In this document: in pieces, positions 6,285 to 39,248 of the stretch
Numbering within the stretch: the first letter of the stretch is position 1
How the letters are laid out: each line of letters opens with the position of its first letter
Assembly: GCF_900112705.1 (NCBI RefSeq)
Contig: NZ_FOMR01000002.1
Location: forward strand, 310,001 to 374,000
Direction of reading: 5' to 3'
Length of the DNA: 64,000 bases
From: Lentibacillus persicus
Lineage (GTDB): Bacteria > Bacillota > Bacilli > Bacillales > Amphibacillaceae
Program-made: the position numbers and the translations under genes
Notes under the pieces: model-generated
Told to the model about the DNA's origin: nothing
What the model saw: only the letters and a program-made list of their open reading frames with translations
Database searches by the model: none

Positions 6285-6535
6285 GATGTAAAAGTGCCAC
6301 GTAGTGAAAATTCTTCAGTAAGTGCTATACCACCGCTCCGGAAATACACGCCGCTCCTGCGGGAAAAGCAACGGCTGAAGACCCCGCAGGAAGCGGTAAG
6401 GTTCAAAGGCTAAGAACGCCACGTCCTGTGGCAACGCCTTTGTGACCAACATCGTGTTGGCCCGAGGCTGAAGCGTTGCCCGCGGAAAGCGACTGCCTGG
6501 AACGGAAATCAACCAGCACTTTGTCGCAGTTTATG
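6285..6535. repeat. Mosaic intergenic repeat R1, copy A
   Basis: A GC-rich, non-coding 251-bp block fills most of the 578-base gap between sspI and the next gene. It begins GATGTAAAAGTGCCACGTAG and ends TTGTCGCAGTTTATG. The end is an imperfect inverted copy of the beginning. Internally it has CTCCTGCGGG / CCCCGCAGG and GGCAACGC / GCGTTGCC inverted repeats. It also contains a 69-bp module (6400-6468) that recurs inverted in copy B at 29850-29918 with one difference. The right half (6361-6395 and 6463-6535) closely matches copy C. No open reading frame with a ribosome binding site is inside. The remaining bases 6536-6789 hold only AT-rich upstream sequence of the next gene. Confidence 0.85.
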
Positions 6536-6789: not shown

Positions 6790-8376
6790 ATGGAACAGAA
6801 TACCACCAAAAAAAGAATGCCCAAAACGTTAATAGCTATTATTGTGGCAGCAGTTTTGGTTATCGGAGGAAGTGCAGCAGCATTTGCTCTTATCACCGGG
6901 TCTCCAAAGGCTCAATATTTTCAAGCGGAAAAGAACACAATCGAATTTTTAACAGACAGCGTGAAGGAACGCTACCAGCCTGAAATGGACTGGAGAGAAC
7001 ATTCAATGGAAAATCCGACTGAGAACGCAGTGGAGTTATCCGCTGAATACAACGGCCCGCCAAGCAGTGGAATGGGCATGGGTCCTGAGCAAATTCTCAA
7101 TAATTCAACAATTGCCTTCACCTCACAAGTGGACCAGGACAATCATCAAATGAATGCAGATTTACAAATGAATTTTGCCGGTATTGAAATAAATGACATC
7201 GGAATGTATCTCGATTCTGATAAGGCCAGATTGCAACTTCCATTTTTGGATGAAGCACTTCAAATTACAGATGAGAATTTAGGCCCGCTGTTGCAGGATG
7301 CTGACCCGTCCCTCAGCGAAATTAAGATTGATTTTGAGGCAATATTTAATCAGATGGAAGGAACTTTGCCTGAAGAAGACCGTGAATACATAGCAGATGA
7401 ATATCTGAGTATGATTTACAGCGAACTGCCTGACGATGCCTTCACGGAAGAACAGGAAAAAGTGACCGTGCAGGAACAATCGATTGACACAACGAAAATA
7501 ACACTTAATCTCTCAGAGCAACAATTAAAAGCGTTAATCACAACGGTTTTGGAAAAAATGAAAAATGATGACGACTTAAAAGAGATTATAGAAGAACAAA
7601 TCAGAATGCAGCAATACGGCGTTTTTGCTTCCGATTCATTGCCAAATGACATGGAAAATGATGTAACGGCTGCAATGGACGATTTTGACCAATCCATTGA
7701 TGATGCTATCAGCGGATTGGAAGATTACCAGATTCCTGAAGGACTGACGTCAACCATCTGGGTTCAGGATAACTTGATTGTTAAACGCGAGTTTTCAACG
7801 AGTTTAGCACCTGCAGAGGAGACGTTGACAACTTTAACAATAAGCGGCAATCAATTGTTAACTAATGAGGAACAAAACCTAAGTTATGAATTCACTGCTG
7901 ATGACGACTCAACTGTGACTGTTGATGCCAATCTATCAAACAAGGAAAATCAGCTTGAAGATTCCATCACAATTGCTGCTGATGGGATAGAATTGTCCTA
8001 TAACGGCTCCTCACAGCTACAGGATGGCACAAGAGAATTTGAACGGGTTTTTTCATTCAGCAGTCCGGATCCAAACGGCTCAGGAAGTTTGAACTGGAGC
8101 GGTGAAGCCACATATGAAAACGACCAGAAGCGTGCGGACCATACATTGGCTGTGGATATGCCCGATCTGCCTCAGGAATTTGTCAGTCTCAATATCAAAA
8201 ATGATGCCAAAACTATTAATGAAGTAACACAGCCTGATGATTCCAACGTCAAACAACTTGGCGACATGTCTGCACAAGAAGTGGAGACGTATTTCCAAAC
8301 AGAATTCGCTCAACAGTTCCAGCAATGGTTCATGGGGATGATGGGTGCCCCAGGCGGTAATATGAACAACTTTTAA
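6790..8376 (+). CDS. Membrane-anchored extracytoplasmic protein of unknown function, partner of an ABC-2 exporter
   Basis: A 528-residue protein with a basic N-terminus (KKRMPK) and one hydrophobic segment at about 14-37 (LIAIIVAAVLVIGGSAAAFA). It has no lipobox cysteine, so it is probably anchored by an uncleaved helix with the bulk outside. The rest is acidic, rich in Asp, Glu and Gln, with beta-strand-like repeats (LTISGNQLLT, ITIAADGIELSYNGSS) and a Met/Gly-rich C-terminus. It may belong to the family called DUF6583, but I cannot confirm this. It starts after AAGGGGGA and is followed 16 bases later by two permease genes and an ATPase. It is therefore likely to be a substrate-handling or accessory component of that exporter. 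Function unknown. Confidence 0.75.
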   Translation: MEQNTTKKRMPKTLIAIIVAAVLVIGGSAAAFALITGSPKAQYFQAEKNTIEFLTDSVKERYQPEMDWREHSMENPTENAVELSAEYNGPPSSGMGMGPEQILNNSTIAFTSQVDQDNHQMNADLQMNFAGIEINDIGMYLDSDKARLQLPFLDEALQITDENLGPLLQDADPSLSEIKIDFEAIFNQMEGTLPEEDREYIADEYLSMIYSELPDDAFTEEQEKVTVQEQSIDTTKITLNLSEQQLKALITTVLEKMKNDDDLKEIIEEQIRMQQYGVFASDSLPNDMENDVTAAMDDFDQSIDDAISGLEDYQIPEGLTSTIWVQDNLIVKREFSTSLAPAEETLTTLTISGNQLLTNEEQNLSYEFTADDDSTVTVDANLSNKENQLEDSITIAADGIELSYNGSSQLQDGTREFERVFSFSSPDPNGSGSLNWSGEATYENDQKRADHTLAVDMPDLPQEFVSLNIKNDAKTINEVTQPDDSNVKQLGDMSAQEVETYFQTEFAQQFQQWFMGMMGAPGGNMNNF

Positions 8377-29615: not shown

Positions 29616-29709
29616 GGGTTGAGACAAAAACGTTTTAAAGTAAATGAAAAGACGAACTATTTTTAAGAAGCAGGTTACACTGCTCCGGAAACCTCGTTTA
29701 GTTCGTCTT
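29616..29709. repeat. Truncated GGTTGRGACA repeat followed by an 11-bp hairpin
   Basis: GGGTTGAGACAAAAACGTTT at 29616-29635 matches the left arm of the terminator at 55869 (GGTTGGGACAAAAGCGTTTT), but its right arm is missing. Instead a different perfect hairpin follows: AAGACGAACTA (29649-29659) pairs with TAGTTCGTCTT (29699-29709). Its loop contains GCTCCGGAAA, a motif of repeat R1. It may end the GNAT transcript. Confidence 0.6.
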
Positions 29710-29755
29710 TATATTGGCTGTTTTCGCATAGATTGTATTTATCTGCTCCACACTC

Positions 29756-30362
29756 GATGTAAAGTGCGACGTGGTGAAAATTCTTCCTTCTGTTTTTCGT
29801 TAAGTTTTAAAAGCTGCTCCGGCAATATACTTCGCTTTCCATGGGCACGGCCTCGGGCCAACACGATGTTGGTCACAAAGGCGTTGCCACAGGACGTGGC
29901 GTACTTAGCCTTTGAACCTTATCGCTTTTCAAGGTGGCTTCGGACACGTGCTGTTCCCATAGGAGTCTGCGTATATTGCCTGCGCTAAAAAGTGCTTACT
30001 GTAGTTTTGTCTATTTAACGATTAATGCAACATTATTTAAACACTAACGTAAGCAGCTGGAATATGCGAGACTCCTGTGGGACAGGCAGGCTAAGTTCTC
30101 AGACGTCAATCGCTAACGCCTGCACTAGCACGTCCGGTGCGTCGGAGCAAAGAGACCCCGCAGTGAGCGGTTTTTGCTCACGAGGAGGCTCGTGGGGAGC
30201 CCACGGAAAGCGACGAGCAAATCTTCCACCGAATCCGCTGCGAGTTGCGAGGAGTGCTGCGTACAGAAGAGCATGCAACACGACGAGCACCATGTATATT
30301 CCAGCTGCGTCTCAAGAAAGTTATCCCAAACGATCCAATCAAACTTTACGTCGCAGTTTATG
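29756..30362. repeat. Mosaic intergenic repeat R1, copy B (longest)
   Basis: A non-coding, GC-rich block of 607 bp in the 882-base gap between the GNAT gene and coaE. It begins GATGTAAAGTGCGACGTGGT and ends TTACGTCGCAGTTTATG, so the ends are inverted repeats of each other. Inside, 29850-29918 is the inverse of 6400-6468 in copy A (68 of 69 bases identical), and 30227-30293 is the inverse of 38858-38930 in copy C. Overlapping open frames here (to 114 codons) have no ribosome binding sites or conserved protein look. Bases 30363-30466 show nothing recognisable. Confidence 0.85.
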
Positions 30363-30466
30363 TTAACTGTGGGGGTTACATAGCAACAATGTTTACTAAA
30401 AGAGCCTTTATATCATATTATAAGTTATTTTCTAACTGTAATTTTAAAGAATTATTTCTCAGACAT

Positions 30467-38781: not shown

Positions 38782-39248
38782 GATGTAAAGTGCGAACCAG
38801 CGAAAATTCCTCCTTCTGATTTCAGTTATTGCTATGCCACCGCTCCGGAAATACACTTGGTGCTCGTCGTGTTGCAAGCAAATTCGGTGCAGTCGGCACT
38901 CCTCGCAACTCGCAGCGGATTCGGTGGATGTTTTGGCTCGTCGCTTTTCGCGGGCGGCTGGTGAGCCTCCTCGGGCTGCGCCCTGCGGGGGTCTCACCTA
39001 TGCCTATGTTCCCGCAGGAGTCGGCATGTATTTCCTTCGCTGGCGTTGCACTCTATAATTAACTTTCTTGGTACGTAACAAACAGCACGTGTGAATGTTG
39101 ATTGGAGTGGAAGACAGTCGACTCCAGCGGGAAAAGCAACAGCTGAGGACCCCGCAGGAAGCGGTTTTCTTCCGAGGAGGCTGAAGCGTTGCCCGCGGAA
39201 AGCGACTGCCTGGAACGGAAATCAACAAGCACTACGTCGCAGTTTATG
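38782..39248. repeat. Mosaic intergenic repeat R1, copy C
   Basis: A non-coding block of 467 bp in the 726-base gap before icd. It begins GATGTAAAGTGCGAACCAGC and ends CTACGTCGCAGTTTATG. The first half (38821-39060) matches copy B in the opposite orientation (GGTGCTCGTCGTGTTGCA, then CTCGCAACTCGCAGCGGATT). The second half (39100-39248) matches copy A in the same orientation, from GACCCCGCAGGAAGCGG to GAAAGCGACTGCCTGGAACG. Where copy A has the 69-bp module, copy C has a 16-base loop. This is the position where mdh lies in B. subtilis. Bases 38643-38781 and 39249-39320 show nothing else. Confidence 0.85.

Follow-up and report, generated by a model that had tools for sequence, protein, structure and literature searches.

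The window, a stretch of 64,000 nucleotides of Lentibacillus persicus DNA, contains three blocks with common inverted ends, A, B and C, whose limits between the inner ends are 6289-6533, 29760-30360 and 38786-39246, respectively. The left end of B reads TAAAGTGCGACGTGGTG and the right end of C, in reverse complement, TAAACTGCGACGTAGTG; the ends lie where the first-pass annotation had placed them. A 12-base core of these ends is found seven times within the window against 2.5 times in shuffled sequences, with none of 100 shuffles reaching seven. The interior of the blocks had been described as variable, which is incomplete: it obeys a strict plan, a full element being filled by two facing hairpins of ~100-250 bases each, always different from one another. 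At least five interchangeable hairpin types (a, b, c, d and e) share one common scaffold, and the chassis that carry them, I and II, have TAAACTGCGA as their sub-terminal inverted repeat. The features of the three elements are listed by position.

6289-6533, + strand: element A, chassis II, over the span of its sub-terminal repeats; shortened by an internal deletion
6340-6512, no strand assigned: single chimeric hairpin of A, a type a left arm fused to type d, identified from the sequence
6394-6460, + strand: Bacillaceae-1 RNA (RF01690, 75.9 bits), tip cassette of A
29708-29715, no strand assigned: left copy, TTTATATT, of the putative target duplication of B, matching the right copy at 7 of 8 bases
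29716-30406, + strand: whole of element B, chassis I, starting GGCTGTTTTCGCATAG and ending CTAAAAGAGCC; ISL3-like ends, the outer ends conserved among chassis I copies
29760-29776, + strand: left sub-terminal inverted repeat of B, the end first annotated
29821-29980, + strand: left hairpin of B, type b (match to covariance model R1, 48.5 bits)
29858-29924, - strand: Bacillaceae-1 RNA (RF01690, 76.2 bits), tip cassette of the left hairpin of B
30054-30307, - strand: right hairpin of B, type c by its type signature, facing the left one and enlarged by further cassettes
30344-30360, - strand: right sub-terminal inverted repeat of B
30407-30414, no strand assigned: right copy, TTTATATC, of the putative target duplication of B
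38786-39246, + strand: element C, chassis II, over the span of its sub-terminal repeats; the conserved sequence goes on for ~14-17 bases on either side
38786-38802, + strand: left sub-terminal inverted repeat of C
38847-39035, + strand: left hairpin of C, type a (R1 match at 38935-39035, 78.0 bits; outer arm from the sequence)
39098-39225, - strand: right hairpin of C, type d, facing the left one (R1 match at 39112-39211 on the - strand, 40.0 bits)
39120-39206: weak tsr24-like match in the right hairpin of C (RF02577, 27.8 bits against a cut-off of 50)
39230-39246, - strand: right sub-terminal inverted repeat of C

A 528-aa open reading frame without a Pfam match, at 6790-8376, adjoins element A.

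The common ends recur throughout the 3.3-Mb genome. Searched with up to three mismatches, the 17-base end TAAACTGCGACGTAGTG gives 73 matches against 10 for a reversed control, the shorter word TAAAVTGCGAM gives 92 against 19, and BLAST with block A returns 82 matches scattered across contigs. We extracted 37 elements with both ends, and all 37 are intergenic. Between their inner ends they measure 100-601 bases and hold no transposase gene, in keeping with the size and content of a MITE; the terminal inverted repeats of the family are likewise those of a MITE.

Four loci (L115, L116, L117 at 930-1097, and L124) have the same ends but, instead of hairpins, carry tandem copies of a 20-base unit, GCTCTCCGGAACATATTTCA, 8.4 of them in L117.

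The 17-mers had been taken for the outer termini of the elements. They are in fact sub-terminal, because the conservation of the flanks continues outward in aligned copies. In chassis I, represented by B, it extends for ~45 bases, reaching GGCTGTTTTCGCATAGATTGTTG at the left end and, in reverse complement, GGCTCTTTTCGTAAACATTGTTG at the right end, which places the true ends of B 44-46 bases outside those first annotated. In chassis II, represented by A and C, it stops after ~14-17 bases, at TTnTGACACAAAATCCA and TnCnCAnTTGATG. The chassis I termini begin with GGCT, like those of ISL3-family insertion sequences, and imperfect 8-base direct repeats stand immediately outside them. In nine anchored elements these repeats are identical at 5.3 of 8 bases on average, compared with 3.0 for shuffled partners, and none of 10,000 partner shuffles gives a mean as high; the best copies are L103 (8 of 8), followed by L070, L105 and B (7 of 8 each). 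Chassis II gave no convincing duplication, either when the scan was free or when its offset was fixed (best offset P = 0.025).

Seven of the 12 genus genomes and 30 of the 60 family genomes contain ISL3-family elements, which carry GG(C/T)TCT-like ends and 8-base duplications; of the two chassis, only I combines these features. The ISL3 ends, among them GGCTATTCGCTATTTAGTG, GGTTCTCTGTCAAATG and GGCTCTATAATATATG, agree with the chassis I end at the first bases only. The window's own genome has no match at all to an ISL3 transposase. Like ISL3-family MITEs, the elements are short, non-coding and intergenic, with GGCT(C/G)T ends and 8-base duplications; unlike them, only chassis I qualifies, the interior is an exchangeable hairpin pair instead of an internally deleted insertion sequence, and a search of ~70 genomes (12 of the genus and 60 of the family, with the fetched ISL3 elements examined) yielded no autonomous element or transposase that has the full chassis I end. 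We call chassis I ISL3-type because of its terminus and duplication length, and do not class it as a proven ISL3 MITE, since the full end, which a parent should share, is absent from every ISL3 element of the genus and family sample. From the same two features we infer that chassis I was probably inserted by an ISL3-type transposase. The MITE-like mobility first proposed thus finds support in a dispersed mosaic with inverted ends, in the duplications of the B class and in empty sites, but a transposase with the same full ends is missing from the genomes searched.

In a related genome, G001, an ISL3-family insertion sequence of 1496 bases occurs in five identical copies with perfect 8-base duplications (L249, L255, L260, L264 and L268) and has apparently been active recently.

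Presence and absence at orthologous sites, as MITEs display, is seen for B and for C. The genes around B are in the same arrangement in G001 and G010, with intergenic gaps of only 94 and 154 bases, respectively, that contain no element. At the C locus the gap of G001 (92 bases) is also free of it; that of G010 (1486 bases) holds another element in the opposite orientation, so we did not score G010 as empty. One gene away from the C locus, G001 has a ~410-base element where G000 has none. Empty sites had been suggested as a check, and they exist in relatives, with inexact junctions: no exact empty site was obtained for these elements, because the nearest species are only ~81-85% identical; in G001 the intergenic DNA is too diverged. 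A closer species pair, G007 and G011, is 92.9% identical over ~195 kb and differs by ~25 small length differences, several of which are such repeats.

The same pair (G011:C6 against G007:C2, L294-L314) provides a 421-base element with several RUCCU-type loops, reading TTAAAACAAAAGCGCAAGC...AGTTTCCTA, which is present in G011 and cleanly missing from G007.

We built the covariance model R1 from 36 type a copies. It comprises 36 pairs, with 97.9% of cells paired and 12 pairs changed on both sides; slid alignments give at most three such double-change pairs, and no shuffle reaches the observed value. The type a model also matches the other types, with a lower score, hence the single scaffold assigned to all of them. 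Neighbouring matches stand head to head in 48 of 48 adjacent pairs. A wobble test, which weighs G-U against A-C mismatches, favours RNA on neither strand, and DNA-level copying between the arms can be an alternative source of the compensatory changes. The core GAAAGCGACTGCCTGGAACG, initially thought common to the blocks, is shared by A and C but missing from B, because it belongs to one of the several interchangeable hairpin types.

That the elements are mosaics is real, because copies agree in one half and differ in the other. In 41 pairs of elements one half is at least 85% alike while the other is below 65%; 11 pairs are alike in both. In L119 and L137, for instance, the left sides are 98% shared and the right ones 56%. 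The exchange extends to the hairpin tips, which hold alternative cassettes, one of them the Bacillaceae-1 RNA. This RNA is present in 16 of 20 loci of one sampled set, twice in some single elements, and in the window the tip cassettes of A and B pass the RF01690 cut-off of 35 bits, an assignment that covers the cassettes and not the elements. The left hairpin of C holds an extra cassette of ~80 bases (GTGCTCGTCGTG...GGCTCGTCGC). Two copies, L098 and L103, have a type c left arm joined to a type a right arm exactly in GGCTCACCA, a word common to the c and a arms; judged by this junction, they appear to be deletion products.

By type signatures, the 41 elements of this genome divide into 20 ab, 9 ad, 7 bc and 5 ac. 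Across all sampled genomes, like-like pairs amount to 0 of 82 elements where 24.7 would be expected, a contrast that is inflated because related copies share descent. Counted by distinct type combinations, six of the ten unlike ones are present and none of the five like ones (P ~0.04, our own calculation). A type-free test gives the same picture: within an element the two hairpins are at most 0.69 identical in this genome (32 elements) and 0.73 elsewhere (14 elements), while an identity of 0.85 or more is reached by 19% and 13%, respectively, of all hairpin pairs; none of 2000 shuffles gave so low a maximum.

Two elements of other genomes that had looked like-like were discarded, one as a false match in a coding region, the other as containing the fifth hairpin type, e.

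The reading we favour, with a probability of roughly 0.6, takes the blocks as composite, MITE-like elements, non-coding, mobilised in trans and shuffled by recombination, whose like-like pairs are lost as unstable palindromes. For the insertion of chassis I copies the transposase would be of ISL3 type and act in trans, and halves would be swapped between copies through homologous recombination. Like-like combinations would then form near-perfect palindromes with arms of at least 100 bases, which could be lost through replication stalls, SbcCD cuts or deletion between short direct repeats. The action of SbcCD on long palindromes is well established, as is their deletion. We infer that this is how the like pairs disappeared, which is consistent with the reduced copies L098 and L103 and with the chimeric single hairpin of A. 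An effect on the host, if any, would come from structured RNA or DNA formed by the elements; for the most part they are probably selfish passengers that the host tolerates between its genes. The never-alike rule would then be a natural, countable record of the inverted repeats that bacterial chromosomes tolerate.

The unlike pairing alone could instead be a founder effect, a few founders, unlike by chance, having been copied ever since. In G001, 18 of 19 elements are a-d, so that the copies there are clearly related, and the excess by distinct type combinations is modest. However, halves recombine, as the 41 pairs sharing only one half attest, a-b occurs in both orders, and six different combinations of types a to e are seen, so that like-like pairs would be expected to have formed. 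A founder effect as the whole explanation is possible, though rather doubtful.

Of 300 genomes sampled from the order, 230 carry the type a hairpin, and these represent 91 of 116 genera. Elsewhere in the phylum it is almost absent: among 200 genomes spread over the phylum, only this one and a second member of its class have it. Widespread as it is, the hairpin reaches the threshold of no Rfam family. The core of type d gives the sub-threshold match to tsr24 of Staphylococcus aureus noted above in C, with both arms aligned and the scaffold GACUCC...AGACC...GGCUGA...GGAAAGCGA lying over model positions 137-198. Matches of this kind are found in 10 of 12 genus genomes and in 0 of 14 control genomes; none in the 12 genus genomes exceeds the 50-bit cut-off, and the alignment of hairpin d covers the core only. 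The scaffold resembles tsr24 distantly. A search of the literature, with most subscription journals outside its reach, returned no published description of the hairpin. Phage records have no match to it; plasmid records match the type d stretch only, in seven records from Priestia, Radiobacillus, Bacillus, Niallia and Planococcus. In other genera the hairpin is often single, within a different chassis with GGCTGGGACA ends, as it is also in L271-L275 of this genome.

Single hairpins between GAGGCTGGGACA ends are seen in many genera (L355-L374, and L271-L275). The right GAGGCTGGGACA copy leads into T-rich DNA, for example GTCCCAGCCTCTTTTTT in L360, and has a terminator-like look. A stripped remnant of this other chassis (TTGAGACAAAAACG...AAAAGACGAACTA...TAGTTCGTCTTTATATT; compare L271-L275) lies at 29616-29718. 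It abuts B directly on the left, and B therefore appears to be inserted at its edge.

Another view is that the blocks are structured small RNA genes (Bacillaceae-1, tsr24-like) under selection for RNA function, their repeats and ends being secondary. Such genes would agree with the strong covariation, the occurrence of the hairpin across the order, Bacillaceae-1 within A, B and many other copies, and the likeness of hairpin d to tsr24, seen in most of the genus genomes and in none of the controls. They would not be expected to be so numerous, nor to occupy different sites in related species; some copies are damaged or reduced (A, L062, L098 and L103), Bacillaceae-1 is only one among several alternative tips, and neither strand has a G-U bias. 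We consider this view unlikely. Within the mobile-element reading that we prefer, the orphan RNA Bacillaceae-1, and perhaps tsr24 too, gains a mobile-element context.

A more speculative and also unlikely proposal is that an order-wide pool of interchangeable hairpins, with Bacillaceae-1 and tsr24-related members, travels in several unrelated mobile chassis, and that the strict pairing of two facing, unlike hairpins is a functional requirement and not only palindrome avoidance. If true, the two hairpins might, for instance, be the two domains of one RNA, or the DNA on which an unknown rearrangement enzyme acts.

Domesticated terminators or mRNA-stabilising repeats (REP- or BOX-like) at gene ends would suit the intergenic position of every element and the very stable folds (-198 kcal/mol for the whole of C, z = -6.1), but the flanking genes of the 37 elements are tandem in 20 cases, convergent in 8 and divergent in 6 (3 more are unclassed), so that there is no strong preference for sites downstream of genes, and we think this explanation improbable. 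It is just as improbable that like-like elements exist and are lost from the data because perfect palindromes break sequencing or assembly: several copies do stand at contig ends of the draft genome (C11, C12 and C21), but the single-contig genomes G001 and G010 give 30 elements, none of them like-like.

Among known repeats, BOX of Streptococcus pneumoniae is modular, its boxA, boxB and boxC repeats following an ordered A-B-C plan. The elements resemble it, by architecture alone, as modular intergenic repeats with strong folds, and differ in having two facing interchangeable hairpins in place of that order. BOX has been described as clustering with RUP and SPRITE (PMC10969869). The repeats bcr1 of the Bacillus cereus group and Bhal-1/Bhal-2 of B. 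halodurans, of 147-167 and 74-76 bases (PMC2267715), are likewise structured, multi-copy and intergenic in Bacillaceae; they are shorter than the elements described here. Bacillaceae-1 was described as an RNA motif (Rfam RF01690; Weinberg et al. 2010, PMC2864571). Its matches within A, B and many other copies are full-length and above threshold; what differs here is that it forms one alternative tip cassette of a dispersed element and also occurs on its own.

These separate Bacillaceae-1 units are repeats of ~190 bases (CGGGATAAAGTGAATCTTCAATCAGTGGG...GGACATTTA) without the ends of the A/B/C family. They form tandem pairs in L073, L082 and L135 and are also found in L065, L080, L109, L121 and L122. 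At L120 (685-811), a Bacillaceae-1 copy has a ~60-base insert in its GUCCU apical loop, with AGGAC flanking it on both sides, and a second trace of this insert lies beside the element of L124.
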